A model generated the notes under the pieces. The model was not told the origin of the DNA. It ran no database searches and saw only the letters and a list, made by a program, of their open reading frames with translations. From assembly GCA_944474755.1 (NCBI GenBank), contig OX104123.1, positions 68,193,898-68,257,897 of the forward strand: a stretch of DNA of 64,000 bases, in the 5' to 3' direction. Position numbers and translations under genes: made by a program. Origin of the DNA: Limnoperna fortunei (Eukaryota; Mollusca; Bivalvia; Mytilida; Modiolidae). Positions 2,698 to 63,661 of this stretch are shown here, in pieces (position 1 is the stretch's first letter; every line of letters starts with the position of its first letter).

Positions 2698-4697
2698 AAA
2701 CTTGAAACTTGAAACTTTATTATTTGCTTAAACGCCTGTTTCTACAAATGTATTCAATGGCGTTGTACAATTCAATTCTAAAAAGTATACAAATAATTAT
2801 AAAAAATATATGCCTATATACACACAAATAGACTGCTCATAGAACAATGATTGCTGTTTAAATACTTCCAAAATAAAGCAAAGTAATCTTCAAAGTAAAA
2901 TGATTTCAATTTGCGTTTGAAGATATCAACAGATTTACAAGTTCTTAAAGTAACTGGTAGCTCATTCCAAAGTTTAGGCCCAATTGTACTGAAGCTTCTG
3001 TCAGAGAAAGATTTTTGTTTTATTAAAAGGAATGACAAAACATCCTCCAGACGATTCTGAGGATCTTAATGTACGTTTAGGAACCTGATGGGATAAAAGA
3101 TCAGTTAAATAAGATGGTGCATTCCCTACCGAACAGTTGTACATATATATAAGTATCTTAAAGTTTATTCTCGCTTTTACAGGAAGCCAATGCAAATCGA
3201 ATAATGCCTGTTTTGAACTATCATACTTTGAGCGATTTAACACAAGCTTGGCACACATGTTCTGTATACGCTGACGTTTCATTAGTTCTTTTTTAGCAAT
3301 GCCATACAAAATTATGTTACAATAGTCTAAATGGGAAATGACTAAGGATAATAACAGGGTCTCTGTAGCCTCTTTTGACAAATATTTTCTGATACTCTTA
3401 ATTTTAAAATAATAAAGCATGGCTGTTTTACACTTTCGTTTAACATGTTCCTTAAAATTCAGAGACTTGTCTAAAAAAGCCCCAAGATATCGTATACAAT
3501 TTGTTGACTTGATAACCTCATTACATATTGTTATTTCTTTAGTACTACACTTGTTTAGTTGTAATCGACTACCAAAAAGGATAAATTCAGTTTTTGAATT
3601 GTTCATTTTTAACTTATTGTTGTTCATCCACTTGTTAATTTCGATAGCGCAGTTCTGCAGATCGTCAATGGCACAAGCTTCTTCTGTTGGTGTCGGTTTA
3701 AATCGTGTATTGGCTGTATGATCGTCGGCGAATCCATACACAGTTATAGAAGGGGGCACGATATCAAATATAGTTCCCGCATATGCCAGGTACAACCAAG
3801 GACCCAGACAGCTGCCCTGTGGCACACTACAGTCAAGCGTCCGTTCGGAGGATACAGACGAGTAAACACTTACACGACAGCTGCGGGGGCGCAGATACGA
3901 ATCTACCCATGCTAGTGCGGATCCACAGACGCCATACTGGTTCTCAAGCACATCGAGAAGAATATCGTGGTCAACCGTGTCAAAGGCGGCACTAAGGTCT
4001 ATCGCGATCAATGCAGTGACTTCCTGCTGTTCCATTCCGTCTAGAATGTCATTGACGAGTCGGAGAAGAGCAGACTCGCAAGAATGAAACTGGCGATATG
4101 CTGACTGATTTTTCGGAAGAAGATTGTTGGCACTCACGTGTTTGTTGAGTCGATACAATGCGGATTTTTCTATCAGCTTTGACAAAAATGATAAATTACT
4201 AACTGGACGATAGTTGGAAAACGTAAGTTCAAGTCCAGCTTTTTTCAACAGCGGTCTGACAATTGCCTGTTTCCACTTTAAAGGAAAAATACCTTGAGTC
4301 AAAGAAAGGTTAACAAGCTCGGTAATTGTTGGCAAGAGTTCGTTTAGAAATAACTTAAGCACTTTTGTAGGCAAGATGTCAAGTTCACAAGTTTTACATT
4401 GCAGCTGATTAATCAGAGCTTTTACTTCATGTTGTGAAAGACTGTTAAAGGAACTAAACTCTTGCACGTCTTTAGAAAGCGGCTTATAACTATCGAAGTC
4501 TTTAAGAGAATCGCGTATTCGTTTGATCTTGTCCATGAAATGATCTGCAAACTTGTCGGCGAGAATATTTTCGTCTTCTGCTGGCGGCATGGGGTTTTCT
4601 GATGTACTTCCGGTAAGTTCTTTCACAAGCTTATAGAGTTTTTTAGAGTCACCTTTGAAATCTATTATCTTTTGACTAAGGACGCATTGCTTTTCGT
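2698..4697 (-). mobile_element. 5'-truncated CR1/L2-like LINE inserted in satellite
   Basis: Non-satellite sequence sits between two satellite blocks. On the minus strand it encodes a reverse transcriptase and a C-terminal tail. It ends at 2,698-2,720 with an AATAAA signal followed by tandem 7-bp TTTCAAG units and no poly(A). A short microsatellite 3' tail is usual for CR1/L2-group LINEs. The endonuclease and ORF1 are absent, so the copy is 5' truncated at about 4,697. Satellite on both sides shares a TGTAAA stretch at the junctions, a possible target duplication, although the repetitive target makes this ambiguous. Confidence 0.85.
2814..4697 (-). pseudogene. LINE reverse transcriptase (CR1/L2-like), frameshifted
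   Basis: Read from about 4,697 downwards. Recognisable RT blocks in order are a YRPVSNLSFLSKLIEK-like block, QSAYRQFHSCESALL, the AIDLSAAFDTVDHDILL block carrying the first catalytic Asp, a VPQGSCLGPWL block, and the FADD catalytic box at about 3,721-3,732. The frame stops near 3,003 after an FNKTKIFL end. The expected C-terminal block (SFSDRSFSTIGPKLWNELP) follows in another frame at 3,038-2,814, so one indel in the A/T-rich stretch at about 3,011-3,030 breaks the gene. The open frame also runs upstream into satellite DNA (to 4,755); those residues are not part of the element. No endonuclease domain is present. It is a dead copy in which the RT core remains intact. Confidence 0.9.
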
Positions 4698-6639
4698 TCT
4701 GTAAATTATCTCCCGTTCCAAATACAGTGGTACCACTCTGTAAATTATCTCCCATTCCAAATAGAGTGGTACTACTGTGTAAATTATCTCCCTATCATAT
4801 TACAATGGTACCACTGTGTAAATTATCTCCCATTCCAAATACCGTGGTACTACTGTGTAGATTATCTCCCATTCTAAATACAATGGTACTACTGTGTAAA
4901 TAATCTCCCTATCATATTACAATGGTACCACTGTGTAAATTATCTCCCATTCTAAATACAGTGGTAATCTGTGTAAATTATCTCCAATTCCAAATACAGT
5001 GGTACTTATGTGTAAATTATATCCCCTTCCAAATAGAGTGGTACTACTGTGTAAATTATCTCCCTATCTAATTACAATGGTACTACTGTGTAAATTATCT
5101 CCCTATCTTATTACAATGGTACCACTGTGTAAATAATCTCCCTATCTAATTACAATGGTACCACTGTGTAAATTATTTCCCATTCCAAATACAGTGATAT
5201 TACTTTGTAAATTATCTCCCATTCCAAATATAGTGGTACCACTGTGTAAATTATCTCCCCATCTTATTACAATGGTACTACTGTGTAAATTATCTCCCAT
5301 TCCAAATATAGTGGTACTACTGTGTAAATTATCTCCCCATCTTATTACAGTGGTACTACTGTGTAAATTATCTCCCATTTCAAATACAGTGGTACTACTG
5401 TGTAAATTATCTCCCATTCCAAATATAGTGGTACTACTGTGTAAATTATCTCCCCATCTTATTACAATGGTACTACTGTGTAAATTATCTCCCATTTCAA
5501 ATACAGTGGTACTACTGTGTAAATTATCTCCCATTCCAAATATAGTGGTACTACTGTGTAAATTATCTCCCCATCTTATTACAATGGTACTACTGTGTAA
5601 ATTATCTCCCATTCCAAATACAGTGGTACTACTGTGTAAATTATCTCCCTATCTAATTACAATGGTACCACTGTGTAAATTATCTCCCATTCCAAATATA
5701 GTGGTACTACTGTGTAAATTATCTCCCATTCCAAATACAGTGGTACTACTGTGTAAATTATCTCCCATTACAAATACAGTGGTATAACTCTGTAAATTAT
5801 CTCCCATTCCAAATACAGTGGTACAACTGTGTAAATTATCTCCCATTCCAAATATAGTGGTACAACTGTGTAAATTATCTCCCTATCTTATTACAATGGT
5901 ACCACTGTGTAAATTATCTCCCTATCTAATTACAATGTTACCACTGTGTAAATTATCTCCCATTCCAAATACAGTGGTATAACTGTGTAAATTATATCCC
6001 ATTCCAAATACAGTGGTACAACTGTGTAAATTATCTCCCATTCCAAATACAGTGGTATAACTGTGTAAATTATCTCCCATTCCAAATACAGTGGTACTAC
6101 TGTGTAAATTATCTCCCATTACAAATACAGTGGTATAACTGTGTAAATTATCTCCCATTCCAAATACAGTGGTACAACTGTGTATATTATCTCCCATTCC
6201 AAATATAGTGGTACAACTGTGTAAATTATCTCCCTATCTTATTACAATGGTACCACTGTGTAAATAATCTCCCTATCTAATTACAATGGTACCACTGTGT
6301 AAATTATCTCCCATTCCAAATATAGTGGTACCACTGTGTAAATTATCTCTCCATCTTATTACAATGGTACTACTGTGTAAATTATCTCCCATTCCAAATA
6401 TAGTGGTATTACTGTGTAAATTATCTCCCATTCCAAATATAGTGGTATAACTGTGTAAATTATCTCCCATTCCAAATATAGTGGTACTACTGTGTAAATT
6501 ATCTCCCATTTCAAATACAGTGGTATTACTGTGTAAATTATCTCCCATTACAAATACAGTGGTACTACTGTGTAAATTATCTCCCATTCCAAATACAGTG
6601 GTACTACTGTGGTAATTATCTCCCTATCTAATTACAATG

Positions 6640-9600
6640 GTATAACTGTGTAAATTATCTCCCATTCCAAATACAGTGGTACAACTGTGTAAATTATCTC
6701 CCATTCCAAATATAGTGGTACCACTGTGTAAATTATCTCCCATTCCAAATATAGTGGTATAACTGTGTAAATTATCTCCCATTCCAAATACAGTGGTACT
6801 ACTGTGTAAATTATCTCCCATTCCAAATACAGTGGTACTACTGTGTAACTTATCTCCCATTCGAAATATAGTGGTATAACTGTGGAAATTATCTCCCATT
6901 CCAAATATAGTGGTATAACTGTGTAAATTATCTCCCATTCCAAATACAGTGGTACAACTGTGTAAATTATCTCCCATTCGAAATTTAGTTGTACCATTGT
7001 GTAAATTATCTCCCATTCTAAATATAGTGGTATAACTGTGTAAATTATCTCCCATTCCAAATATATTGGTATAACTGTGTAAATTATCTCCCATTCCAAA
7101 TACAGTGGTACTACTGTGTAAATCATCTCCCATTCCAAATATAGTGGTACCACTGTGTAAATTATCTCCCATTCCAAATACAGTGGTACTACTGTGTAAA
7201 TTATCTCCCATTCCAAATACAGTGGTACTACTGTGTAAATTATCTCCCATTCTAAATATAGTGGTACCACTGTGTAAATTATCTCCCATTACAAAAATAG
7301 TGGTATAACTGTGTAAATTATCTCCCATTCTAAATATAGTGCTATAACTGTGTAAATTATCTCCCATTCTAAATATTGTGGTATAACTGTGTAAATTATC
7401 TCCCATTCTAAATATAGTGGTACCACTGTGTAAATTATCTCCCATTCCAAATATAGTGGTATAGCTGTGTAAATTATCTCCCATTTCAAATATAGTGGTA
7501 TAACTGTGTAAATTATCTCCCATTATAAATATAATGGTATAAATGTGTAAATTATCTCCCATTCCAAATATAGTGGTATTACTGTGCAAATTATCTCCCA
7601 TTCCAAATATAGTGGTATAACTGTGTAAATTATCTCCCATTCTAAATATAGTGGTATAACTGTGTAAATTATCTCCCATTCCAAATATAGTGGTACCACT
7701 GTGTAAATTATCTCCCATTCTAAATATAAAGGTACCACTGTGTAAATTATCTCCCATTCCAAATATAGTGGTATAACTGTGTAAATTATCTCCCATTCTA
7801 AATATAGTGGTACTACTGTGTAAATTATCTCCCATTCCAAATAATAACTGTAAATTATCTCCCATTCCAAATATAGTGGTATAACTGTGTAAATTATCTC
7901 CCATTCTAAATATAGTGGTATAACTGTGTAAATTATCTCCCATTCCAAATACAGTGGTACTACTTTGTAAATTATCTCCCTATCTTATTACAATGGTACC
8001 ACTGTGTAAATTATCTCCCTATCTAATTACAATGGTAGCACTGTGTAAATTATCTCCCATTCCAAATACAGTGGTATAACTGTGTAAATTATCTCCCATT
8101 CCAAATACAGTGGTACAACTGTGTAAATTATCTCCCATTCCAAATGCAGTGGTATAACTGTGTAAATTATCTCCCATTCCAAATACAGTGGTACTACTGT
8201 GTAAATTATCTCCCTATCTAATTACAATGGTACCAATGTCTAAATTATCTCCCATTCCAAATAAAGTGGTACTACTGTGTAAATTATCTCCCATTCCAAA
8301 TACAGTGGTACTACTGTGTAAATTATCTCCCATTCCAAATACAGTGGTACTACTGTGTAAATTATCTCCCATTCCAAATACAGTGGTACTACCGTGTAAA
8401 TTATCTCCCTATCTAATTACAATGGTACCACTGTGTAAATTATCTCCCATTCCAAATACAGTGATACTAATGTGTAAATTATCTCCCTATCTAATTACAA
8501 TGGTACTACTGTGTAAATTATCTCCCATTCCAAATGCAGTGGTACTACTTTGTAAATTATCTCCCTATCTAATTACAATGGTACTACTGTGTAAATTATC
8601 TCCCCTTCCAACTACAATGGTACCACTCTGTAAATTATCTCCATATCTAATTACAATGGTACTACTGTGTAAATTATCTCCCCTTCCAAATACAATGGTA
8701 CCACTCTATCAATTATCTCCCTATCTAATTACAATGGTACTACTGTGTAAATTATCTCCCATTCCAAATACAATGGTACTTCTTTGTAAATTATCTCCCT
8801 ATCTAATTACAATGGTATTACTGTGTACATGATCTCCCCTTCCAAATACAATGGTACCACTCTGTAAATTATCTCCCTATCTAATTACAATGGTACTACT
8901 GTGTAAATTATCTCCCATTCCAAATACAGTGGTACTAATGTGTAAATTATCTCCCATTCCAAATACAGTGGTACAACTGTGTAAATTATCTCCCATTCCA
9001 AATACAGTGGTACTACTGTGTAAATTATCTCCCATTCCAAATACAGTGGTATTACTGTGTAAATTATCTCCCATTCCAAATATAGTGGTATAACTGTGTA
9101 AATTATCTCCCATTCCAAATACAGTGGTACTACTGTGTAAATTATCTCCCATTTCAAATACAGTGGTATTACTGTGTAAATTATCTCCCATTCCAAATAC
9201 AGTGGTACAACTGTGTAAATTATCTCCCATTACAAATACAGTGGTACTACTGTGTAAATTATCTTCCATTCCAAATATAGTGGTATAACTGTGTAAATTA
9301 TCTCCCATTCCAAATACAGTGGTACAACTGTGTAAATTATCTCCCATTCCAAATATAGTGGTACCACTGTGTAAATTATCTCCCATTCCAAATATAGTGG
9401 TATAACTGTGTAAATTATCTCCCATTCCAAATACAGTGGTACTACTGTGTAAATTATCTCCCATTCCAAATACAGTGGTACTACTGTGTAACTTATCTCC
9501 CATTCGAAATATAGTGGTATAACTGTGGAAATTATCTCCCATTCCAAATATAGTGGTATAACTGTGTAAATTATCTCCCATTCCAAATACAGTGGTACAA

Positions 9601-10480
9601 CTGTGTAAATTATCTCCCATTCGAAATTTAGTGGTACCATTGTGTAAATTATCTCCCATTCTAAATATAGTAGTATAACTGTGTAAATTATCTCCCATTC
9701 CAAATATATTGTTATAACTGTGTAAATTATCTCCCATTCCAAATACAGTGGTACTACTGTGTAAATCATCTCCCATTCCAAATATAGTGGTACCACTGTG
9801 TAAATTATCTCCCATTCCAAATACAGTGGTACTACTGTGTAAATTATCTCCCATTCCAAATACAGTGGTACTACTGTGTAAATTATCTCCCATTCTAAAT
9901 ATGGTGGTACCACTGTGTAAATTATCTCCCATTACAAATATAGTGGTATAACTGTGTAAATTATCTCCCATTCTAAATATAGTGCTATAACTGTGTAAAT
10001 TATCTCCCATTCTAAATATTGTGGTATAACTGTGTAAATTATCTCCCATTCTAAATATAGTGGTACCACTGTGTAAATTATCTCCCATTCCAAATATAGT
10101 GGTATAGCTGTTTAAATTATCTCCCATTTCAAATATAGTGGTATAACTGTGTAAATTATCTCCCATTATAAATATAATGGTATAACTGTGTAAATTATCT
10201 CCCATTCCAAATATAGTGGTATAACTGTGCAAATTATCTCCCATTCCAAATATAGTGGTATAACTGTGTAAATTATCTCCCATTCTAAATATAGTGGTAT
10301 AACTGTGTAAATTATCTCCCATTCCAAATATAGTGGTACCACTGTGTAAATTATCTCCCATTCTAAATATAAAGGTACCACTGTGTAAATTATCTCCCAT
10401 TCCAAATATAGTGGTATAACTGTGTAAATTATCTCCCATTCTAAATATAGTGGTACTACTGTGTAAATTATCTCCCATTC
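6640..10480. repeat. Long segmental duplication inside satellite, offset 2,643 bp
   Basis: A run of about 31 monomers (about 6,648-7,845) recurs at about 9,290-10,480 in the same order, with private variants preserved. Examples are the ATTCGAAATTTAGT monomer at 6,975 and 9,618, AACTTATCTCCCATTCG, TATAAATATAATGG and the short AAATAATAACTG monomer. The offset of 2,643 is not an exact multiple of 39 because of the shortened monomers. This indicates unequal exchange or block duplication. Confidence 0.8.
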
Positions 10481-10481
10481 C

Positions 10482-11090
10482 AAATAATAACTGTGTAAAT
10501 TATCTCCCATTCCAAATATAGTGGTATAACTGTGTAAATTATCTCCCATTCTAAATATAGTGGTATAACTGTGTAAATTATCTCCCATTCCAAATATAGT
10601 GGTATAACTGTGTAAATTATCTCCCATTCTAAATATAGTGGTACCACTGTGTAAATTATCTCCCATTCTAAATATAAAGGTACCACTGTGTAAATTATCT
10701 CCCATTCCAAATATAGTGGTATAACTGTGTAAATTATCTCCCATTCTAAATATAGTGGTACTACTGTGTAAATTATCTCCCATTCCAAATAATAACTGTG
10801 TAAATTATCTCCCATTCCAAATATAGTGGTATAACTGTGTAAATTATCTCCCATTCTAAATATAGTGGTATAACTGTGTAAATTATCTCCCATTCCAAAT
10901 GTAGTGGTATAACTGTGTAAATTATCTCCCATTCTAAATATAGTGGTACCACTGTGTAAATTATCTCCCATTCCAAATATAGTGGTGTAACTGTGTAAAT
11001 TATCTCCCATTCTAAATATAGTGGTACCACTGTGTAAATTATCTCCCATTCCAAATACAGTGGCATTACTGTGTAAATTATCTCCCATTC
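10482..11090. repeat. 305-bp higher-order tandem unit in satellite
   Basis: The short-monomer marker AAATAATAACTG recurs at 10,482 and 10,787, 305 bp apart (seven full monomers plus a 32-bp one). The variants between the markers match, so a 305-bp block was duplicated in tandem. The second copy decays towards about 11,000. Confidence 0.7.
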
Positions 11091-12528
11091 CAAATACAGT
11101 GGTACAACTGTGTAAATTATCTCCCATTCCAAATACAGTGGTACTACTGTGTAAATTATCTCCCATTCCAAATACAGTGGTACCACTGTGTAAATTATCT
11201 CCCATTCCAAATACAGTGGTACTACTTTGTAAATTATCTCCCATTCCAAATTTAGTGGTACCACTGTGTAAATTATCTCCCATTCTAAATATAGTGGTAT
11301 AACTGTGTAAATTATCTCCCATTCCAAATATATTGGTATAACTGAGTAAATTATCTCCCATTCCAAATACAGTGGTACTACTGTGTAAATCATCTCCCAT
11401 TCCAAATATAGTGGTACCACTGTGTAAATTATCTCCCATTCCAAATACAGTGGTACTACTGTGTAAATTATCTCCCATTCCAAATACAGAGGTACTACTT
11501 TGTAAATTATCTCCCTATCTAATTACAATGGTAATACTGTGTAAATTATCTCCCATTCCAAATACAGTGGTACTACTGTGTAAATTATCCCCCATCCAAA
11601 TAGAGTGGTACTACTTTGTAAATTATCTCCCTATCTAATTACAATGGTACCACTGTGTAAATTATCTCCCATTCCAAATACAGTGATACTAATGTGTAAA
11701 TTATCTCCCATTCCAAATATAGTGGTACTACTGTGTAAATGTTCTCCCTATCTAATTACAATGGTACCACTGTGTAAATTATCTCCCATTCCAAATACAG
11801 TGGTACTACTTTGTAAATTATCTCCCTATCTAATTACAATGGTACCACTGTGTAAATTATCTCCCATTCCAAATACAGTGATACTACTGTGTAAATTATC
11901 TCCCATTCCAAATATAGTGGTACCACTGTGTAAATTATCTCCCATTCCAAATACAGTGGTACTACTGTGTAAATTATCTCCCCTTCCAAATAGAGTGGTA
12001 CTACTCTGTAAATTATTTCCCATTCCAAATACAGTGGTACTACTGTGTAAATGTTCTCCCTATCTTATTACAATGGTACCACTGTGTAAATTATCTCCCA
12101 TTCCAAATGCTGTGATACTACTGTGTAAATTATCTCCCTATCTAATTACAATGGTACCACTGTGTAAATTATCTCCCATTCCAAATACAGTGGTACTACT
12201 TTGTAAATTATCTCCCTATCTTATTACAATGGTACCACTGTGTAAATTATCTCCCATTCCAAATACAGTGGTACTACTGTGTAAATTATCTCCCATTCCA
12301 AATCCAGTGGTACTACTGTGTAAATTATCTCCCATTCCAAATACAGTGGTACTACTGTGTAAATTATCTCCCTATCATATTACAATGGTACCACTGTGTA
12401 AATTATCTCCCATTTCAAATACATTGATACTACTTTGTAAATTATCTCCCATTCCAAATATAATGGTACCACTCTATAAATTATCTCCCTATCTAATTAC
12501 AATGGTACTACTGTGTAAATTATCGCTT

Positions 12529-18621: not shown

Positions 18622-19278
18622 ATGGTTTCCAAGGAACAACGAGATTATCTAACACTCTATAAGTCTATTATGGACACGGGAGCTGAGGTAGTTCGAATGT
18701 ATACTGAATCCAAGTGTAAAAGCAAATACGGTATCGACTTTGCTGCTTACTTAGAGAGTGAGAAACATTATTTCTATCATCAATGGGAAATAAAAAGAAA
18801 GAAATCGTTTTGTTGCGGTTGTCCTCCGGCAGGTTGTAACATACTTAAAACTGGAAATATGAATAACAAAATGTTTACAAAATGGTACAAATTTTATTCA
18901 AATATTCCGGTCCCAAGAGGTCACATGGATGCTCAACATTTTTGCATATGCCAATATACAGCCCAAAATTTATCAATAGAGGGACTCGACTTAAGTGATC
19001 TAAAATTCTTACTTAAAAACACAAAACTGTTATCTCAAGCAGACGCTTATCAGCTTGAAATTATATCGACTGTCAGAAACTCAGTCTGCCATGCTGTGTC
19101 TACGAAAATGTTTACAGAAAAAGATTTGAAAGATTTACGGTTAAAGTTTGAAAGTGCTACTTTGCAATTAACTGAGGAACTGAACAAACGGATGGTTAAG
19201 ATGTTACTTAAAATAGAGCCCTTATTAAGTAACGAGGACGCTGAGAAGTTGATGAAAGAAATTTCAGATTTGCATGTG
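18622..19278 (+). CDS. Exon 1: HEPN-like domain
   Basis: 219 codons, ending phase 0 at the donor CATGTG|GTAAGT. The ATG has a good Kozak context (A at -3, G at +4). An AG acceptor lies at 18,578-18,579, so this may be preceded by a 5' UTR exon. Helical segments flank a Cys-rich patch (SFCCGCPPAGCN, about residue 74) and HFCICQYTAQN. The motif R-N-S-V-C-H at residues 152-157 fits the HEPN R-(x4-6)-H catalytic motif. The domain resembles the DZIP3-type HEPN found in bivalve proteins; without a search I cannot place the exact family. Confidence 0.85.
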
Positions 19279-20598
19279 GTAAGTGGTTACATGTAAATGA
19301 GTTTAAAATGGATTAAAGACAGGATAGCTACGATAATGGTGCATTTGGCTTTACCATGTCGTTTATCGTCTTTAAAACGTTGTGAACTATTCCTTATTTT
19401 GTAGGCTATTATAAATATAGTTATAATTACAAATATTGAAAGATTAATTTACGGTTTAAGTTTGAATCTGCTACTTTGAAATTAACAGAACAACACAACA
19501 TACGAATGGCCAATATACTATTAAAATTAGAACACTTTTAAGTAAATAGAAAAATGTTGATGAAAGAAATTTTTGATTTGCATGTGGTAAGTGGCAAAAT
19601 AAAAATGTGTTATAATCTAACGGGGTCGAGGCATGTTTTCTTTTACGGTTATAATCCCTTTATTATCTTGTAAATTACTGATAATATCGTTTTAAAAATA
19701 AATTCAAAATCTAAGAAACAAAATCAAAGTATCGAGCATGTATTCATTTAATCAGCTTCACTTTTGTAATGGTTTGGTAGCCACATTACATAATAAACAT
19801 GTATTCAAACATCAACTGTATTAACAGGTATCAATGATGAGAAATTGTTACATCTTAATAAAAATAAGGGATTTAGATACATATAACCGTATTGTGTTAC
19901 AAATGGTTATTGCTTATGACTGTCTTGACAGGAAAACAATCATAACATGGACACTGTCATATCAACAATTGATTATTATGTCGGAAAAAGTGAAAACAAC
20001 ATCAAACATAATGTCACAGAAGTGCTCAAAAAGACTGAAAACAACATCAAGGATCATGTCACAGAAGTATTGTCATGTGAAGTACAACAAGTGAAAAATG
20101 AAGTTACGGAAAGAAGTTCAGTTTTAAGAGAAGATATTTTGCAATGTACAGCAAAAATAGGAGACAGAATACAATTAGCAGAAGAACGAATACAAACGAC
20201 AACAACATTAGTTAAACAGGGGCAAAACAAATTAGCAGGCGAAATAACTGAAAGTATCAATGATTCACAACAAAAGATCAGAAGTGATATTAATGCAAAC
20301 AAGAAAGAATTGAACGATTGTCTAAATAAACATATGGAAGATACAACAGTAATAAGATCTGAAATTAAATCATTGAAGGACAACATAGAAGACATAAAAA
20401 GTAAATAGAATTAGTAAAATTATATAACAACAGTGTTTTTTATGTCTACAAACAGACCTGAATATATTAACTATAATAAACTGTTTACTTTGCTTTTTAT
20501 GAAATATTTTTAAAACAACAACATCTACCGATTCAATTGATCTTACAATAAAAGAACGACAACATACATGTATATCATATTGTTGCTGTATCAATTTG

Positions 20599-20665
<67 letters not shown>

Positions 20666-23600
20666 CCAATCAATTAATCAATCAATTGCGAATGCGTGGG
20701 ACAGTACAAAGTGAGATTAGGTAAATTCGAATGCTTGTACACATGTATGAATGTTCTCAGATACTTGTCAAAAACAATTTGACAACTTTTTAAAACCTTT
20801 TCCTCCAGTAAAACATAAAATATCACATGACAGTAAGTCTGCCAAAGAAAATCTCCTAACATAACATTCGTCCCTTGACCGCCGATTCTTTTGGTTTCGG
20901 TGTCCTTACTATTTTTGCCTAACATCTTTATTAGTGACGACAGCCCCTTTTGGAAATTCTTACCGCGTAATCTGGCTTACTCCCAAAACAGGACCTCTTT
21001 GTATAGCTACACAATCATCATTTAACTTCAACATAGAACAAACAAGTATAAATACTGTTTTTATTTATGGGATCTTACATATACGAAAGTTTAATGAACT
21101 GTTTGGAGTAAAATATTTTTTCACTTAGGAGGTCGATAATATAAATGAGCATTCCAACTCACTGAAAAGACAAAAAATAAGCGAGTTAAACAAAAGTTAA
21201 CACAATTATTTATCAGGGAAAATGTACATTTAAACATTTAGAATACAATAAATTCGCTTAAATTGTTAGAAAACAATGACATATCATTTGAAATATGTTT
21301 ATCATTTTTTATTAAAAAGTTTGAAAATTTCTGTAATGGAGGGTAAAATAAAACCAAACCGAGAGTTGTGTTAATACATGCATAAAGTATGATATTTGCA
21401 ATTGTTTTTCTCAATGTAGTATTATATTGTAGGAGTTATGGAAGAAAAGTTCACTGAACTAACAGCCAAGATAGAAATAAACAGTCTAAGGCAGGCTGGT
21501 ACCAACACCAATGAACGTAACTACCAATTTCTTATAAAAATAATAACTAAAATTACCGCGCAACATCTTCTATATTAAAGTATTGCGTCTATTACCGAAA
21601 TTAAAATCTTATTTGTTTCTCATATAATACGAAACGTTAACACCTTGTGTTAGTTAATTTTTTGTAAATAATAGAATTCCTCTATGAAATTATATGTATT
21701 TAATAAAACATATTTATGGAAATGTTTTTACCTGAATATTTCATTTTACAGAACAACGACAAGTGAAATTCGAAATAAAGTTTGAATCAGACGTTCTAAA
21801 CGAGAATACGGCTCAGACAAATCTAACATCGCAGACTGTTCCTTATACAGAGGAATGTGATACCGATGAAAACAAGATTAAGGTACATTCGGTAAAGAAA
21901 AACTGTATACTACTGGAGGCATCGGCATCGTCCAATATATTTAGAAGTGAAGAAACATTGCGGTCTGCAATACGAGCACTGATTCAAAAAGTGTTAGATG
22001 CAGGAGAAGTGGACACAAGTAAAGAATCCACTGTAAAAGTTAATTTTCAAATTATTTCTCCTCTGAATGATGGTGAGTTGAATTTAAGTAATTAAAAAGT
22101 AAATTAAACTAATATACACTAAAAAAATATCAGATGCTCATTGGCACTATGTAACAAAGGATATGTTAGAGCTTCATCAAATTGCATTCAGTTTTGTAGG
22201 AATAGTGTAGGTGAGATGCTCCGTATTTGAAAGAAAGTCCATGTTTTGCTGTGGGAAAATCCCAAATAGCGTTCTGATTAAAATGTTAAATATCAGATGC
22301 ACAATGGAACTATCTGACAAAAATTCTTTTAGAGTAACATCAGATTCAAGTCTTTGGTGTAGGTAACCCAAGTGTAACAGATAGACGGACAAACGTCTAA
22401 TAATTATTATAAATTATATCATTTAATGAACATATTCGGGAGATCTGAGATAATTATAGTGTTATGTTGGTGTCACCAGATTACTAACACTGCATATTTT
22501 GTATTTAGGTTAGCAACTGCCTGTGTTATTTAAAAGCTGATTTCTTCAGCTATTAAAATCATATTAAAGTTCCTCAATTTTTTTAACTACACTTTTAGTA
22601 AATTATATAACGGTAGCAACTAGAATAGTGCATAGTGTTTCGTTCTTATTATTGTATAACATACGAAAATTTTTTCATAATGGTCGTCCTAATATTATTA
22701 TTTTTTGTGTAGACGAAACACAAATTGTTTGTAGAATGATTTGCAGAGAAAAATCCACAAAAGGTAACCAAACCGATAAATGCCAAGAAAATCAACAAGG
22801 AACGGTTGAGGAAGTGTATGTTCAAGGTATGTTAAATACCATTTAAGCAAGCAAGTATATTTTTTGTGTGCAAAGATGACAATTCATTTCAATATTTGCG
22901 TTTGTTATAAAACGGCACTGATGTATATAGCGCTTAATTTGTCTAGAAACACTTACTTTGTCCTTTTATTGTTGTAAAAAACAGGCTTGTAGTATGCTAG
23001 ATTTTCGATGATCGACACCATATATATGTAACTTTTGGAAGATGTTTTTTCAGCAGTCACTCGGAATTTCAATGGGTACAAAATGTGCCCCACTTCTTAC
23101 CGATTTGTTCCTGTATTCTTATGACACGGAATTTCTTCGACGTCTTATTAAAGACAAAAAGATAGCAGAAGCTTGGTCTTTTAATTTACATATAGATATA
23201 TTAATGATGTCCTTTCAATTAACAACCCTCAATTTGCTGGGTGGCTTCCGTTAATATATCCTTAATAACTAGAAATTAAAGAAACTACTTAAACAGCTTC
23301 ATCTACATCCTTTTTAGACTTACACCTCGAATATGATACCAACGGTCATCTTAGCACTAAAATTTACGGCAAACGAGAGGTTTTTATTTTCAAAATTATA
23401 AATGTTCTCACCTATGCAGAAATATTATAGCTTCTCCTGCATACGGTATCTATATTTTTCAATTGATCAGGTATGCAAGAGCTAGGAAGCGAGTATACTG
23501 ATTTTTGCAAACGTCACCAATTTCTTCGGGATAAACTTATAAACCAAGGTTACAAGAAAGAACGACTTGTCCGCGCCTTCAATAAGTTTTACTATAGATA

Positions 23601-24129
23601 CAACTTCCTTGTCGAAAAATCTCGTTTGATAATATAGTTGCAGATAGTTGCTATGATGATTGATTGATACACCTGTTAGTGACTAGTGGTATATGATACT
23701 CATCTATTTTAATCAACTAACCAACTCACATTCTACAGTAATGAAAGCGGTAGGTTTGGCATGCCATAAAACTTGGTTTAAACCACCATTTCATTTTTAG
23801 TGCCTGTACCAAGTCAGGACCATTGCTGTAGTTGCTTATGTTGATTGTTGGTTCTGGAGTTAGCAGGTTTCTCGGACTTTGATTTGTGGATTGTCTTTTT
23901 TGACAGTTTCATCGGTGTTCGGTATTTTGTTATTACCTTCAAGTATTATGCAGCTTATTGTCAACATAACTATTAACCTGGTAATAGTTCTGCTTGAAGA
24001 AAAAAGAGGTTGTTGATATTAGTTTTCAATATAAAATCTAAGTAAAGTATAATTATGAAATGTTTTCCATAATTTATGATGTATCTATCTCAAAACGATT
24101 TTTTAGTCGAAAATATTTTGTTAACAGGG

Positions 24130-24186
<57 letters not shown>

Positions 24187-26258
24187 ATATATAAGGCCAT
24201 TCGTTGGTCAGTCTTTGTCTAAATTTTTGACAAGAAACACCGTCATTTGTATCGTTGCATAATCTTCTAGACTTGTATATTATTATTTGTTTATTCTGTA
24301 TCGTCATGTTTGTCGATCCTATACTTAATAAGCTTTACTGGTCTGTAGACTCTTTAGACGTTTATATAATATTTTGAACTACCTGTATTGTGTTTTTACA
24401 CGATCCCAGTGGACTTATATCATTCCATCATCGAATGAAAAAATACTTGAAGCATTTAGAGTTAAACGCCACTGATGAGTCTTAAGTAGACGAAACGCGC
24501 GTCTGGCGTAAGGAATTTGTCACCTTGGTAATTTTGATTACATCTTGTTGGAATATTTGAGGAAAGCCAAGTAAAAGCGCGGCACGTCCGCGACTGGCGG
24601 ACTTGAAAAGCAACTATTTTGGGTTAAGTTGGAAATGAGAAAGTTTAAGATTAAAATGTTATGACTTGTTTACGTCATTTATTTATATTGACATTCAATG
24701 ACTAAGGCCATTCGTTGGTCAGTCTTTGTCTAAATTTTTGACAAGAAACACCGTCATTTGTATCGTTGCATAATCTTCTAGACTTGTATATTATTATTTG
24801 TTTATGCTGTATCATCATGTTTGTCGATCCGATACTTAATAAGCTTTACTGGTTGGTAGACTCTTTAGACGTTTATATAATATTTTAAACTAACTGTATT
24901 GTGTTTTTACACGATCCCAGTGGACTTATATCATTCCATCACCGAATGAAAAAATACTTGAAGCATTTAGAGTTAAACGCCACTGATGAGTCTTAAGTAG
25001 ACGAAACGCGCGTCTGGCGTAAGGAATTTGTCACCTTGGTAATTTTGATTACATCTTGTTGGAATATTTGAGGAAAGCCAAGTAAAAGCACGGCACGTCC
25101 GCGGCTGGCGGACTTGAAAAGCAACTATTTTGGGTTAAGTTGGAAATGAGAAAGTTAAAGATTAAAATGTTATGTCTTGTTTACGTCATTTATTTATATT
25201 GACATTCAATGACTAAGGCCATTCGTTGGTCAGTCTTTGTCTAACTTTTTGACAAGAAACACCGTCATTTGTATCGTTGCATAATCTTCTAGACTTGTAT
25301 ATTATTATTTGTTTATGCTGTATCGTCATGTTTGTCGATCAGATACTTAATAAGCTTTACTGGTTGGTAGACTCTTTAGACGTTTATATAATATTTTGAA
25401 CTACCTGTATTGTGTTTTTACACGATCCCAGTGGACTTATATCATTCCATCACCGAATGAAAAAATACTTGAAGCATTTAGAGTTAAACGCCACTGATGA
25501 GTCTTAAGTAGACGAAACGCGCGTCTGGCGTAAGGAATTTGTCACCTTGGTAATTTTGATTACATCTTGTTGGAATATTTGAGGAAAGCCAAGTAAAAGC
25601 ACGGCACGTCCGCGACTGGCGGACTTGAAAAGCAACTATTTTGGGTTAAGTTGGAAATGAGAAAGTTTAAGATTAAAATGTTATGACTTGTTTACGTCAT
25701 TTATTTATATTGACATTCAATGACTAAGGCCATTCGTTGGTCAGTCTTTGTCTAAATTTTTGACAAGAAACACCGTCATTTGTATCGTTGCATAATCTTC
25801 TAGACTTGTATATTATTATTTGTTTATGCTGTATCGTCATGTTTGTCGATCCGATACTTAATAAGCTTTACTGGTTGGTAGACTCTTTAGACGTTTATAT
25901 AATATTTTGAACTACCTGTATTGTGTTTTTACACGATCCCAGTGGACTTATATCATTCCATCACCGAATGAAAAAATACTTGAAGCATTTAGAGTTAAAC
26001 GCCACTGATGAGTCTTAAGTAGACGAAACGCGCGTCTGGCGTAAGGAATTTGTCACCTTGGTAATTTTGATTACATCTTGTTGGAATATTTGAGGAAAGC
26101 CAAGTAAAAGCACGGCACGTCCGCGACTGGCGGACTTGAAAAGCACTATTTTGGGTTAAGTTGGAAATGAGAAAGTTAAAGATTAAAATGTTATGACTTG
26201 TTTACGTCATTTATTTATATTGACATTCAATGACTAAGGCCATTCGTTGGTCAGTCTT

Positions 26259-26311
<53 letters not shown>

Positions 26312-29300
26312 GCCTAAAGAGTCTACCAACCAGTAAAGCTTATTAAGTTTAGTTAAAGTGAGAAGGTTCAAGATCAATATTTTAAGACTTGATTACGTTA
26401 TCTATTTAAATATATTGACACTCAAGATTAAGACCATTCGTTGGCCAGTCTGTGTCTATAACCTTGGCAAAAACACCTTCGTTGCAAAATCTTCTAGACT
26501 TGTAAATATTTATGTATGCATAAAACCTTGCACATGCAAATTTGAATATTGCATCAGAATGCATCAGCTGTTTTCATGAGCGATATTGGCCAGGAAAGAG
26601 GGCCAATATATTTTTAAAAATAAAATGAATGTAACATACGTTATTGTTATACATATATTAAATGCTCCCTATAATGGACACCACATATAAGGACAAATTG
26701 TCTTTATTTTGTTTTTCAAGTTGTAGATACACCTGGCGACATCTGCAGTGGTTCTCATGCATCAAATGTATGTGCACGTTGTGATGAACTGCAGAAACTA
26801 CTAGAAGAGAAAAATGATATCATACGTAGGGAGAAAACACATCTGAATCTGTATAGACGTCGTTCTAACGAATTGCAGGGGCTACTAAAAAAGAAAGATG
26901 ATATCATACGTACGAACAAAACACATCTGACTGTGTATGAACGTCGTTGTGAGGAATTGCAGAGGCTACTAGAAAAGAAAGATGATATCAATTGGAAGCA
27001 GAAAACACATCTGACAGTGTGTGCACGTTGTGGTGAACAGCAGCAGCTACTTGAAATGAAACACGAGATGCTGACACTTGAAAAAGAAAAAAGTGAATTA
27101 AAAACTGAATCACTACAAAAAGGTAATTAATACAGCATTTTCTAAATATAATAATAAACATTTAGTCGATTTACTAGCATACTTATTTAACGTATCGAAG
27201 TGCTTTGATTTTTATTTAATTGTGTTTGTTCTTGAGGTTTTGACACATCCAATTTTATAATTGTTTTTTCTTAATTATTGCCAATTCATTCGAGCAGTAT
27301 TCATTAAACAATATCAAGGACATACAAGAACATGTTTAAACAAACAAGGGGACAACAACGCAACACACAGACACACAACACAAAACCAATTACTGTTTGA
27401 CACGAACCGCACAAAAAGCCGGGAGTTAGTCCAGGTGCCCGAAAGGGTAATCACTTCCTGCTGTACGCGTGGCAGCCATCATATCAGTCAGGTAAAAACT
27501 CGATAATTAGTCATATCCTGGGGTAATCATAACCCAGTAAGAAGGAGGGATGGAGACTAGAATTTTCTATGTGATGACTACAATCTTGCCACTCATTCGG
27601 GTTTTAAATATTGTTTGGGTTTTAGCGCAACTGATGGGTCTTAACGCGCGTCTGGCGTAGTAAATTATATTAACCTTGGAATCTTTGATGACATTTTATT
27701 TGCAACCACTGGGTTAATGCCTCTGCTGGTGGAATGTTCGTCCTCGAGGGTGTCACCAACCCAGTAGTCACACTTAGATGCTGACAGGAATATCATTTAT
27801 TCTTTCAGCGGTATAGTCATTGTCTAAATTTACTACCCGTGTCGCCGGGTTATTGTCCCTTGTATGGCATAAATAATAAGTTGTTACCCAAATATTTTAT
27901 TTGTTTGTAAATAAACAATATTACAATAATAATAATACATTTACATTATAATTTAATTCAGTATAAACATTCAAATTTCACTTGAGCAATCCAATAACAT
28001 ATAAACTGAACTGTAAATAAACAGGGAACTATTTCAAAATAGTCCACTCAGACCCACGTACAGTGTTGGAATGACTACAGGTGTTTGAATGATTCAGACA
28101 GGTGCGAAAAGCATGCAAAGGTGTGTTTGACTTTAGGTTTGTAGGAAAAACATGCAAAGGCATTTTTGACTTGAATATACGGTTGATTAGTCAGGCATCA
28201 ATATGAAATGATGAACATATATGGATGATATATGATAATGAAACGAATAAAATATCTGAAAACACCAATCGGAGAGCGTCCAATTTAAATAAAATAATTA
28301 GCTTCCCGTGACACCCGGGAACTCAGCCTCATTAGAGTACAAACACAAGCAAGGATAGAAGCACAATCGGTGATGGTCGTGTAATAACAATCACAGGATT
28401 TAATAACGTTATATTGGGAAAGAGATCAAGTCCTTAAAATGTCTACCACGTCTTTTGAATTAACTTTTCAATACTAAATTGTTGGTTTTTGTATTGAGTG
28501 TCTGTTTTTTTTTTGTCCCCTCTTTAGTGCAACCATGGCTTTTTCTGTCCTTCACTTACTGTTAACGGATCTTTGATTCTTTTTTCTGAGCCAGTGCTAA
28601 AATAGTACCTGCTATAAAGTGTCACTGTATATTTAAAGGCCAGTTTTTATTGCTGTTCAAATATTAGTCAGTAGTTTAGATTTAATTGAAGGAATGAGAT
28701 CTTTCAGAAATCTTCTCAATATACATGGCACATCCCATCAATAAGATCTTTGCGCTACATATTATTTGTTCTTTTATCCAACCTTCAATGTATGAATTCG
28801 CCATTTCAAAGATGTATAACTATGCTTTCGTCTAGACATTGTAACAATTAACAAAACTTGTTTCATTATAAGATCTAAAGCATTTTTTTGAATACAGTAT
28901 TTTGAATGGGAAATTTAAGAACAAGTAGCCCTGGGCTCTAAACAGGTGGCGCAAAAAATCTCCCACTGAAATTGTCTGTAGTTGGTTCTTAAAATCTGGC
29001 GACAGGTAAAAAGTTGTTAAAAAGTTAGAAAATCAAACGGTCAACGAGAATGGATTCCCGCTGGACAGAGATTTAATGGTATTAAATCCAGTCAGAGACA
29101 AAGAAAGATACACATTGACGAGAAACAAAGAACAATAAAAACAAATATGATAAAAACTTATGTCTCCATGTATTTCAGTTGGCAAATATACTTTACATGA
29201 ATGAATATATACGTACAACTTTGCATTTGTGATCAGTTTTCCTTATAATAAAATGGCACGACATGGATAATTCCTCTAGTGAGCATTATTGTATTAAACA

Positions 29301-35300: not shown

Positions 35301-38300
35301 AAAAAGCCCCACATTAAGCCAAAGCGCCCCACTTACAAAAATCGCTATATATTTTTATTTCTTTGATTATATGTTATGATCTCTGTTAAGATAACAAATA
35401 AATATGTGCTGTTTCTTCGGTTTTATTAAAATTATGTATGTTTAAAGTTTTTAATCGTTCTTTCTTTTATATGAAAAGACAAAAAAAAAACAACAACAAT
35501 ATCATTTTTTTATTATAGCAGAAAACAAGATAACAAACAATGGGTACAAACAATAATGTACTAAGAGCAATTTATCTGAATATGGGTTGTGCGGGCACGA
35601 TTTCTTTGCAATCGAGACGACTTGTCTTCCGATAATAGTTTGCATTGGAGAGGATTAATGCTGGCTTCTGTGTATAGGCGCTGTATCAGTGTGTAATTAG
35701 GATAATTAAAGCAAATAACGACATAATCGACCATTATTAATCAAATATTTCTTATTTTTAATCAGCGACAATACACTCCTTAAAGTCGAAAATAGCTGTA
35801 CAACTTTACAATTTTATATTATAAAGTTATTTTTGTAAGTGGGGTGATTTAATTTACGGTGGGGCCGATTTCGCTTTTGGTGCGGGTGTTTTTACCGGGG
35901 GCGACTGCAAATAGTTGGGGTGCTTTTGACGGGGCGATTTTTCCGTGAGGCGATTTGACCAGCTACCGATCAAAGATACCAAGGTTATAGAATTTACTAC
36001 GCCAGAGACAAAAGAGACAACAAAAAATATTAAAAGAAAAGCCCTTATACAGTGTTTGCTGAAATACGTGCAAATCAGATATATGCTTTAGTTATTACTG
36101 CCGAAGTAATCAAAAATAACAGTATACATATCTATACTGCTATCGTCTTATTAAGCAGATTAAATGCGTTGACTGATTATTTGTATCTGATTAACATTTA
36201 CTGGCTTATAAACCATTTTAAGCCACGCCTACATAAAGATTTTAATAATGTACCTTTCTTGCCAACGTAAACAAATCGATGTGCTGCAATCACGCAAATT
36301 ACTTGTTTTGATATTTTTTAATTACTTTTATTAAACGTGTTACGTTTATTACTTTTGAATATATAATTCATTCCGAACAGTAGAACTGTACAAATCTCTC
36401 AATTTTGGACATTCATGCTGATCACAAAAATACTGCACTCACAATACTGTGAGACCTAATACGGGTATACTTTTAAAGGGAATTTTAAAAGAATACAAAA
36501 AGAATGTACTTTGGAGTAAACAGATTGTAGGATAAACTTAAATTAGTGTATTTACTAGACACAAACACAATATATCATCAAAACGAAACGGCTAAGCCTT
36601 GTACTTATATTGTGCTAACGCCAAGTCAATACACTTATATTATAAAATAAATACTGCCTTTGGTATATCATATCTCAAAGGACAAAATACTTTATTTTAT
36701 ATCACCATGATAACCCATATAGGTTTCAATGTCACACAATACTAGTGGAATACAACTTTAAGGAACACTTTAATTCTTTAGAGAAAAATATTTAAGATAC
36801 AAATATAAAAACATCAGAAGCAAATATAAAAGGCAATAACACACTTTTCTGTGATGAATCGGTACCTGTTCGTTCCAAACAGGTGACAATTGTCTAGGCT
36901 ACCTTTTGTTTCTAATGGGTTTTTATTTCAAACTTGTCAAACAGACGTACTTTTGTTTTGGTTGTTGTCTTTTTACGCCTAATTAAAAGCGAAGCCGTGT
37001 ATGAATTCTAAATATGGTAACATTTTAGATCTTTGAAATATAATTTAATTTTAACGATAATACTTGACCCTTTCAAAGGGAAAACAACGAAGACGAATGA
37101 CATGGAACTAATTGAATTTCGAACGGCGTAAAAATAGGTCATGTGATTAACGCAAGTTATATCGTATAATACGAGTTGCTACAAGGATTTTGCTTAGAAC
37201 GCAAAAGAAAGTATTTAATAAAATAATTACTAAACTAAACACATCCAAATGAACTAATAAAATGATATACTACCTATACACCTTAAATGGTGTTTTATTC
37301 ATTTATTTATTTATCTGTTTACGTTTAATTTCCTTATGTATCCTTTTATATTTGTTATTAAATCAACAATAAACGTCGACAAAAATAGTAACAAAACAGA
37401 TGTATTATTGTCGATAAACATAAAAAAATATTAAAATTACTAAATACTAGTATGTCAAACTTTAATAGATTACTTTCGAATAAGTTTCAGCTTCGCAATG
37501 ACTGAATTTTTAGTTTTACAAAGCAGTGATTATATTGTGTTATATAATTTTTTTTAATGTTTTTTAGTTCTGTTTGTTTGCGAGTATTATATTTCTTACA
37601 TATGACACTTTTAGTCTGCCGTATGCATCAGTAAAATCAGATGCCGAACCATGCACAATTAATGCAGGGGCAGTTGTTTTGATTCAAAGAACTAGAAAGA
37701 AAACCGTACCATTAGTTAAAAGGACTACAACAAGTCAAGCTCCTTTTGAAATGCATGTGGAATCGTACAGTGGTAATTAATTAAATGAATGTGACAAAAT
37801 ATATTATTGTAACAATTTTTAATTTTATTATTCTTGGTACACGAAAAGTGTTATTTTTGTGTTTAATACATGTATAAGACGCATACAAACGTTGCTGTAT
37901 TATAAGAAAATATATATACAAAAATAAAATAATTTGTAGGAAACAACAGATATATAAATTAGTGTCCACTTAATACTGACATAATCAACATGTTTACACT
38001 TCAATTGGATAACGGGTCGTAAAAAATAGAAGATAGAAATAAATAGCATATTTTATACATTTCAGCATTTGATGTATATCTTCCTTTATATCACAAAATT
38101 TTAATGTTTCAATGTAATTTTGTTCACCAAATGGTAAAATACGTAAACCCAACTTACAAAGGCGAATGAAATAACCACATTTAAGTCTAAAAAACAGACT
38201 TCATTGCTTGCTGTTTATAAAGAATATTAGTTATTAAACTACTAACCTACATAATTTGTCGAAAAACATCCTATTGGAACAGAACTGAATGACGTCCCGT

Positions 38301-60464: not shown

Positions 60465-60811
60465 ATGACTTGGGATCCAGAAAAAAACACAACCTCTTTT
60501 CCCAAAGCTATTAGAGATTTGTAAATTTCACAAATTTTTAAAATATAAGGGTTTTTAATTTTGAAATTTTGAATAGCAAGTAGACACGAGAGGGAATCCG
60601 AGCAGATAATAAATTTGGAATCGTCTGACGAAGCAACTATTTTCATGGCAAGAAGCTTGCGCCTCAGCAGTAAATACGGATGAGGCAGACGGGAGACGAC
60701 GAGTTTCAACACACTCTCCGAAGACAGCGGCTGAGGCAACTTTAGCATCGTCTTTTGACCCGTCTGTATAAATAGTACTATAGTCAGGGTAACAAGATTT
60801 AATTTCTGCAA
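60465..60811 (-). pseudogene. LINE RNase H middle, shifted frame
   Basis: FIICSDSLSCLLAIQN and ILKICEIYKSLIALGKEVVF are the second and third RNase H blocks. The frame differs from both neighbours, so two indels split the domain: one near 60,680-60,640 (after the FTAEAQA start) and one near 60,470. Confidence 0.85.
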
Positions 60812-62613: not shown

Positions 62614-62675
62614 AGGGGTATGGTTGTTTAATTTAGAAACAAAGTTACGCCAAGAGGTGCGTCGATTTTATTTCG

Positions 62676-62930
62676 TTACCCTGCGAGCTTTCGCTCAAAA
62701 AATTCGGAATTGGTTAAGATTATTTTGAGTTGGTTGTTTATTAAAGCGTCGCTCGGCTTTTTTCCGGTCTTTAATAGCGTCCTCACAGCTGTCATCGAAC
62801 CATGGTTTACTAGGATGTTTTGGATTTGTCGAGGTCTTAGGAATTGTTTCATCAGCAATTGAAATAAGTATTTCATTGAATTTTAAAATTGGATCAGAAA
62901 TAGCTTCAAAAGTACCCGAGTTAAGTCGCT
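62676..62930 (-). pseudogene. LINE ORF2 linker between endonuclease and RT
   Basis: The frames carry pieces such as EILISIADETIPKTSTNPKH in one frame and NILVNHGSMTAVRTLLK in another, so the endonuclease-RT linker is frameshifted more than once. Confidence 0.6.
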
Positions 62931-63661
62931 CTATACATAGTTGTTCAAATAGAGGCCAATTGGCTCTATTAAATTTATACCGAGCGAGCCGCTCTGTTCT
63001 GTGACGGAGGAGTGCAAAGATTCCAATATAATGGGAAAGTGATCACTGCCACAGAGATCGTCATGGACTTTCCATGAGAAATCGGGCAGCAGAGAAGGAT
63101 CTGCTATTGCAAGATCAAAAGCCGAATATGATCCATTCCCAGGATGTAAATATGTATTGGTTCCATCATTAAAAATACACAGATCTTCCTGATTCATTAA
63201 GCCTTCAATAATTTTTCCTTTATCATTTATTGTGTTACTGCCCCATAAAGGGTTGTGTCCGTTGAAGTCCCAAGTAATATATAAGGGGCCGGAAGCTGAT
63301 CATTAAGATGTTTCAACTGATTTAAATTTAATGAAGAATTCGGAGGGATATACACAGAGCATAAAGTAATTGTTTTGTCTAAAGATATTCTAACAGCAAA
63401 GGCCTGACGATCAGTGTTGAGATCTACAGGGCTATGTAGAACTTGATCTTTTACAAGAATGGTAGAGCCGCCAGCAGCTCTATCATTCTCGTCTACATAT
63501 GTGCTGTATATAGAGTAGTTTTTTAAGGACATGTTATCACTTCGTTTTAGGTGGGATTCTTGGAGGCAAAATGCAACAGGAAGAAAGGCTTGAACTAATA
63601 AAGTAATTTCAAGAAAATTAATCTTAAGACCTCGACAATTCCATTGTATTATTGTACCCAT
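62931..63661 (-). pseudogene. LINE ORF2 AP-endonuclease, frameshifted
   Basis: The ATG at 63,661 begins with IIQWNCRGLK (Asn of the first block), then VAFCLQESHLKR with the catalytic Glu, AGGSTILVKD and LCSVYIPP. A frame break at about 63,230 hits the 'LLGDFNGHN' block, and the domain resumes at 63,197 with YSAFDLAIADPSLLPDFSW and CGSDHFPI, the final catalytic Asp-His. All blocks are identifiable; only the frame is lost. Confidence 0.9.

Follow-up and report, generated by a model that had tools for sequence, protein, structure and literature searches.

A tandem array of self-cutting ribozymes inside a gene raises the question of whether it acts on that gene or merely travels with it, and, if it travels, what moves it. 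Four hammerhead ribozymes lie in a row in an intron of a predicted gene of Limnoperna fortunei, within a stretch of 64,000 nucleotides (64 kb) that was analyzed as a whole and that we call the window. We compared the array with its relatives in the genome, modeled the folding of its ribozymes, and mapped where the copies of the repeat end.

The array and its host gene

In an Rfam search over the 64-kb window, four hammerheads of family RF00163 were the only matches above the gathering score for any family. All are full-length matches that score 39 bits (gathering score 34), and they are identical type I ribozymes, spaced 511 bp apart on the coding strand of the intron (Table 1). A sequence-only reading of the window had called four real hammerheads at these places and on this strand, with cuts at 24,503, 25,014, 25,525 and 26,036, and the same sites are predicted here. 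It had further taken them to be in sense, intronic, and of the retrozyme kind, all of which was borne out by Rfam, by an exon model, and by the dispersed family described below. Its expectation of 511-nt RNAs agrees with the natural monomer prediction, but four cut sites yield three complete monomers, not four.

Table 1. Features of the window, with positions counted from its first nucleotide
Feature	Position	Strand	Basis or remark
predicted host exon D, 5' neighbor of the intron	22713..22826	+	splice sites and phase
(TA)n, left array edge	24135..24193	.	TRF
retrozyme array	24193..26264	+	units 24193-24703, 24704-25214, 25215-25725, 25726-26235, and 29 bp of a fifth
site B, unit 1, AATCTTCTAGACTTGTATAT	24261..24280	+	favored 3' end, 13/43 pooled 3' ends
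site A, unit 1, GACTCTTTAGACGTTTATAT	24348..24367	+	favored 3' end, 19/43 pooled 3' ends
type I hammerhead 1	24466..24509	+	RF00163, 39 bits, E 2.4e-6; predicted cut after 24503
type I hammerhead 2	24977..25020	+	RF00163, 39 bits, E 2.4e-6; predicted cut after 25014
type I hammerhead 3	25488..25531	+	RF00163, 39 bits, E 2.4e-6; predicted cut after 25525
type I hammerhead 4	25999..26042	+	RF00163, 39 bits, E 2.4e-6; predicted cut after 26036
(TA)n, right array edge	26263..26308	.	TRF
inverted fragment of the 511-bp family, unit 131-180	26298..26348	-	49/51 aligned columns identical
diverged copy, unit 431-511 then 1-94	26347..26513	+	75-76% identity
predicted host exon E, 3' neighbor of the intron	26721..27122	+	splice sites and phase
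broken remnant, second retrozyme family	27606..27838	+	82% identity over 244 columns to locus L021
short retrozyme remnant	35969..36006	-	matches the 27.6-kb remnant at 92% over 39 columns

The array is composed of three units of 511 bp and one of 510 bp, followed by the 29-bp beginning of a fifth, and the single deletion in the 510-bp unit is sited downstream of the last ribozyme. Among the four units, 15 of the 511 columns vary and none of these falls within the 44-nt ribozyme, where about 1.3 would be expected, a difference that is not significant. All but one of the variable columns (14/15) are private to a single unit (6, 5, 2, and 1 across the units). The pattern looks as if the four units had been made together from one template and had then drifted, not as if they had arisen by stepwise doubling, though a single burst of DNA amplification would give the same picture. 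The G+C content is 35%, under the 45-50% below which retrozymes lie, and the longest stop-to-stop stretch is 68 codons, leaving the array without coding capacity, as for metazoan retrozymes.

Our model of the host gene joins five exons whose splice sites are plausible and whose phases agree (18622-19278, 19932-20400, 21752-22072, 22713-22826, and 26721-27122), and the array sits in sense in the 3894-bp intron between exons D and E (22827-26720). The earlier placement in "intron 5" thus stands as to intron and coding strand, but in the five-exon model this is the fourth intron; the other numbering may count one exon absent from our model. The label of a HEPN/pseudocaspase gene was not confirmed: Pfam gave no convincing hit for the host protein and NCBIfam likewise no confirmation, a homologue search found none, a PDB sequence search returned no useful match, and an unaided structure model reached a pLDDT of 37. 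A string in exon A, RNSVCH, would presumably fit the Rx4H motif of HEPN domains. By eye, the 3' part of exon A recurs with its splice donor as a decayed duplicate in the next intron (19460-19590), and exon E contains 2.8 copies of an 84-bp repeat (26786-27020) that encodes 28-residue coiled-coil-like repeats. Toward the ends of the window, positions 1-12524 hold a 39-bp repeat in about 320 copies, with a frame for a LINE-type reverse transcriptase breaking the series (3001-4791, minus strand), and a broken-up LINE with RVT_1 and weak Exo_endo_phos stretches occupies 60555-63784 (minus strand), its relatives in the protein collection including a mollusc protein at 58% identity.

The effect of the array on splicing was computed for a polymerase moving at 3.1-4.1 kb per min, with the sites taken as independent and the wait for a second unit ignored. 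At 0.1 per min, the published rate of a mussel hammerhead, cutting would precede the appearance of the 3' splice site in 13-17% of transcripts; with 0.8 per min, the rate for coral, this share rises to 68-78% (rates as given in PMC7229834 and PMC10919898). A strong effect on the host gene, as the sequence-only reading had envisaged, is not predicted at the mussel rate, at which the model casts the array as a passenger with a modest effect on splicing. That the array regulates its host gene seems to us highly improbable, the identical kind of units being scattered through the whole genome and a majority of transcripts being cut in time only at the coral rate. Such regulation would fit the sense orientation in a 3.9-kb intron, and there are precedents: the Cpeb3 intronic ribozyme is described as showing that spliced mRNA can be lowered (PMC10919898), and hammerheads within introns are known from C10orf118 and RECK (PMC3088659). 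The latter, as described there, are single and conserved across species, while those of the window belong to a tandem mobile repeat. Passenger or not, the array offers a natural test of how intronic self-cutting influences the splicing of a host gene.

A dispersed retrozyme family and the predicted fold of its ribozyme

The genome searched comprises 1,335,373,924 bases in 285 contigs. It contains at least 57 matches to RF00163, all above the cut-off (74 scored of 160,719 first-look candidates), and at least 217 matches to the unit (39 scored of 979 candidates). The unit matches listed lie on the contig of the window and on 12 others, with identities of up to 98%. In the loci that were read, ribozymes are spaced 498-556 bp apart, save for two gaps of 1533 and 1641 bp, which are near three units, and one array elsewhere in the genome carries at least 18 ribozymes at a spacing of exactly 510 bp. 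Judged by these sequences, the window array is one insertion of a dispersed metazoan (non-LTR) retrozyme family (retrozymes being retroelements that carry a hammerhead and are not autonomous), having a type I hammerhead in a short tandem repeat that is dispersed in many copies. The suggestion that an array of this kind was new as a feature of such a gene is not supported, given a family found on at least 12 other contigs; a copy in some intron is to be expected because the family is dispersed and about 5000 hammerhead copies have been published for mussel retrozymes (PMC7229834).

Two further groups of copies deserve mention. About 50 kb to the right of the window (C13:68307896-68327698), 12 scored hammerheads on one strand, 959-2875 bp apart, probably form a long retrozyme array, with several spacings near multiples of 479 bp. 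The three retrozyme copies of locus L019 (1519-1755, 3460-4133, and 6155-6549) lie next to an identical or closely similar flank, as though local duplication had multiplied a single old insertion. Locus L021 and the broken remnant in the window belong to a second retrozyme family, whose repeat measures about 355 bp; the ribozyme of the remnant is without the 3' strand of stem II and the GAAA. This shorter family, to which the short remnant also belongs, has the hammerhead sequence in common with the 511-bp family and little else.

The closest described systems share only some of these traits. The retrozymes of Mytilus galloprovincialis, as described in PMC7229834, likewise combine a tandem type I hammerhead, low G+C, lack of coding capacity, and many dispersed copies. 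Their repeat of 350-390 bp fits our second family in size, and with RNAs of about 170-400 nt they differ from the 511 bp (498-556) of the first. The 511-bp repeat is thus longer than published, lying outside a retrozyme range of about 150-450 bp that is the printed one and not a definition, the same authors also mentioning circles of 150 to over 1000 nt (PMC7229834). A stable, highly self-paired monomer RNA, as published for metazoan retrozymes, was not seen here: the circular fold of the unit is no more stable than that of shuffled sequences (z -0.13, 100 shuffles), which speaks against our reading, and we rejected a stable circular fold as support for the retrozyme assignment. The pDo500 satellite of Dolichopoda cave crickets also has a hammerhead in a repeat of about 500 bp, for which single and double forms were proposed; it is a satellite of insects that accounts for about 5% of one genome, and the account we drew on describes no insertion signature (PMC2837043). 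As for relatives outside the genome, two sequence patterns compared with viral contigs gave no match; two matches to a third pattern were set aside as chance, being without a hammerhead core. A search of the literature for the ribozyme letters found none.

How such a ribozyme would fold bears on what a transcript of the array could do. Helix III of the window hammerhead has two pairs closed by a palindromic GCGC loop, and since ACGCGCGT is palindromic, two units would be able to share an eight-pair helix III. In ViennaRNA, whose energies take in secondary structure alone and leave tertiary contacts and folding kinetics outside the model, the double hammerhead is the optimum for two 44-nt ribozyme copies (-34.3 kcal/mol); for a single 44-nt copy the optimum (-11.3) is not a hammerhead, the hammerhead fold itself reaching -8.1 to -8.9. 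Within a 611-nt transcript of two units, forming the dimer takes 2.5 to 3.9 kcal/mol relative to the unconstrained fold and forming two separate hammerheads takes 13.1, paired units being favored over separate ones by 10.6 kcal/mol. A single hammerhead costs 5.4-7.2 kcal/mol in contexts of 101 to 401 nt, and in contexts of 201 and 401 nt the hammerhead stems have a pairing probability of at most 0.01, which counts against the explanation that we prefer. On these models the active form of the array ribozyme is predicted to be a dimer of two units, and the earlier view of each motif as a self-sufficient ribozyme appears doubtful in light of the two-pair helix III and the energy that favors the dimer. 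Palindromic helices III and dimers have been described for repeat-type hammerheads (PMC3088659), as has dimer action for amphibian retrozymes (PMC7229834).

Ends and inverted partners of the copies

The ends of copies were mapped by BLAST with the third unit of the window array as the query; ends mapped in this way may overrun a few bases into (TA)n. Set 1 consisted of loci L003-L030 and the window, and set 2 of loci L031-L060, which were fetched later, when the sites had already been fixed. Left out of set 1 were matches shorter than 90 bp (L004, L024-L027, L029, L030, and one piece each of L014, L020, and L021), two pieces of the other family in L021 and L028 (3' ends 351 and 359), ends cut by the edge of a locus, the 5' ends of L017 beside Ns, and two of the three flank-sharing L019 copies. 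In set 2, ends were merged only where flanks were identical.

The 3' ends are strongly clustered. Set 1 has 22 usable 3' ends, and 16 of them are no more than 12 nt from unit position 88 or 177 (sites B and A, respectively); when ends were drawn uniformly at random, the two best windows captured a mean of 7.2 and never more than 11 in 200 trials. Set 2 gave 24 distinct 3' ends, 3 of which are the window's own, and 16 of the 21 new ones fall at the sites defined by set 1; the remaining five are at unit 115, 149, 293, 294, and 511. Under uniform independent ends this result has a P of 8.9e-13, an upper bound on the surprise because one locus adjoins a set-1 locus and some flanks are shared (L039 adjoins L011, and its repeat flanks are common to L048 and L052, with different ends), so that the ends of loci with common repeat flanks are not fully independent. 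The 5' ends are scattered, with 2 of 22 usable ones in set 1 and 1 of 25 in set 2 (a hand count) at the preferred sites.

At both end points the unit reads TAGAC, a few bases, and then TATAT (TAGACTTGTATAT and TAGACGTTTATAT). Other copies have 1-4 bases between the two motifs, and some carry variants such as TAGGC. Directly after most of the preferred 3' ends comes TA-rich DNA, often a long (TA)n, as read by eye without a background test, and in such flanks target duplications are unreadable. Each unit has four TATAT sites. Pooling the two sets, 19 and 13 of 43 3' ends lie at the TAGAC sites and 11 elsewhere, and the TATAT sites at unit 224 and 492 account for none of the 43. All 32 ends at TATAT sites therefore fall on the two with TAGAC, and 32 against 0 indicates that the shared letters TA alone are an insufficient explanation. 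We infer that sites A and B are where reverse transcription starts. The window's own sense array does not agree with this, as it terminates at neither and ends at unit 29 in a junction that occurs once in the genome; the 11 pooled ends elsewhere also count against it. An AC-rich hairpin at unit 29 was considered as a start site by analogy with an anole element. The richest 12-nt AC window does adjoin this end (4.9% of positions do equally well), which is not so at 20 or 30 nt, and the idea was dropped once end sites at the remaining loci proved to be different.

Copies in opposite orientation no more than 250 bp apart occur at 14 of 26 distinct loci. The count covers 27 fetched stretches at these 26 loci and excludes L004, L021, and L024-L030 (ribozyme-only or of the other family) as well as L006-L008, L010, and repeats of one array. 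Thirteen of the inverted pairs are head-to-head, 12 of them separated by at most 45 bp, and 6 are tail-to-tail. The window is counted among the loci, with the sense array, (TA)n, the inverted fragment, and the diverged sense copy in succession: the inverted fragment faces the array tail-to-tail and has its end at site A, next to (TA)n, and the diverged copy, which terminates near site B, stands flush head-to-head with the fragment. Twin priming, at one point considered for the inverted fragment of the window, was replaced by this general pattern of inverted pairs.

Penelope-like elements and other candidate movers

Penelope-like elements are described as beginning reverse transcription at two adjacent internal sites, preferring AT-rich DNA, and cutting and extending both target strands (PMC11167929); adjacent inverted pLTRs, simple AT-rich targets, and action in trans on another gene have also been reported for them (PMC3846280). 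The retrozyme copies share with them an AT-rich target, an internal start (the preferred 3' ends at 16/22 and 16/21), inverted partners that are mostly head-to-head, and tandem units. They differ in that the repeat is without a reverse transcriptase or GIY-YIG frame and has a helix III, and in that two end sites about 88 nt apart take the place of a tail of 30-40 bp (PMC11167929, PMC3846280). With no frame above 68 codons, the array is thus not itself a Penelope-like element. Type I hammerheads in both, their tandem occurrence, and their co-existence were the basis on which a 2020 retrozyme paper proposed Penelope-like elements as strong candidate carriers (PMC7229834). The end sites and inverted pairs, features absent from the description of mussel retrozymes that we used (PMC7229834), fit the hallmarks of Penelope-like elements and so, at the level of sequence, support that published proposal for animal retrozymes. 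In the open-licence literature we found no earlier report of end-site evidence for retrozymes.

Candidate enzymes are present in the same genome. The genome gave at least 149 GIY-YIG matches (150 scored out of 1068). In L061, the only such region read, RVT_1 and GIY-YIG share a single frame of 735 aa. This element, one of many candidates, has neither sequence nor motif in common with the unit. By eye, a string resembling a minimal hammerhead (CTGAAGA ... GAAA) occurs twice beside its frame, 3708 bp apart (L061:176 and 3884), and no Rfam match to it reached E 1. What looks like a tandem Penelope-like array lies at C11:18713545-18724832, where four GIY-YIG matches follow one another on the same strand at intervals of about 3.68 kb, three in open frames of 772 aa and one in a frame of 281 aa.

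We put at roughly 0.7 the probability that the window array is a retrozyme insertion of a family whose transcripts are cut as double hammerheads, circularized, and moved in trans by a Penelope-like element. A transcript through at least two units would fold as a double hammerhead, which would cut it into 511-nt monomers, and a host RNA ligase, as published for other retrozymes, would close these into circles. A reverse transcriptase supplied in trans, with a Penelope-like element as its most likely source, would then copy the circle: the enzyme would open TA-rich DNA, begin inside the RNA at a TAGAC-TATAT site, and travel one or more times round the circle. The expected outcome would be units in tandem whose 3' end is preferred and whose 5' end varies, often accompanied by a partner copy in inverted orientation.

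An ordinary LINE would be another candidate mover, acting by target-primed reverse transcription accompanied by 5' truncation and twin priming. A preferred 3' end and 5' truncation fit LINEs too, the window itself holds two LINE-type reverse transcriptases, and retrozymes of Nematostella are described as carrying 15-bp target duplications resembling LINE insertions (PMC4918200). Yet both end sites lie inside the unit, and what follows them is TA-rich DNA rather than poly(A), and while twin priming yields an inverted 5' part it gives no tail-to-tail partner; 13 head-to-head pairs, mostly flush, together with 6 tail-to-tail pairs form a Penelope-type pattern, and we consider a LINE origin unlikely. 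That same pattern is what one would see if the repeat were itself a fragment or non-autonomous derivative of a Penelope-like pLTR and not a separate retrozyme lineage, and tandem hammerheads are indeed known from these pLTRs (PMC7761336). The pLTR hammerheads are described there as minimal and usually without helix III nucleotides, whereas helix III is present here, and the unit shows no similarity to L061, the one element compared; we regard this derivation as very unlikely.

Nor do we give more credence to ordinary satellite DNA, which would spread by unequal crossing-over or DNA circles and would acquire its ends when TATAT in the unit recombines with TA microsatellites. The use of only the two TATAT sites that have TAGAC, 32 to 0, is hard to reconcile with such recombination, and the dispersed loci hold many copies under a few units long. 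The changes private to single units oppose stepwise doubling, though not one burst. What a satellite would account for is the array with at least 18 ribozymes at exactly 510 bp and the TA-rich sequence adjoining the ends. Unequal crossing-over may have contributed to long even arrays, but as the source of the family a satellite process is, in our estimation, just as improbable as derivation from a pLTR.

Extending the Penelope-like mechanism beyond this locus, we lean toward the view that animal retrozymes in general are circular-RNA parasites of Penelope-like elements, whose enzyme would recognize TAGAC-TATAT, use a TA-rich break, make multiple rounds of the circle, and often copy onto the other strand as well. 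Parasitism of this kind would explain the arrays, their preferred ends, and their inverted partners together. The new element contributed here is the insertion signature of retrozyme copies, with which the question of what moves animal retrozymes becomes testable. The end sites and inverted partners provide a direct sequence signature; they name the RNA site for a test with purified protein and can be searched for in any genome that bears retrozymes.
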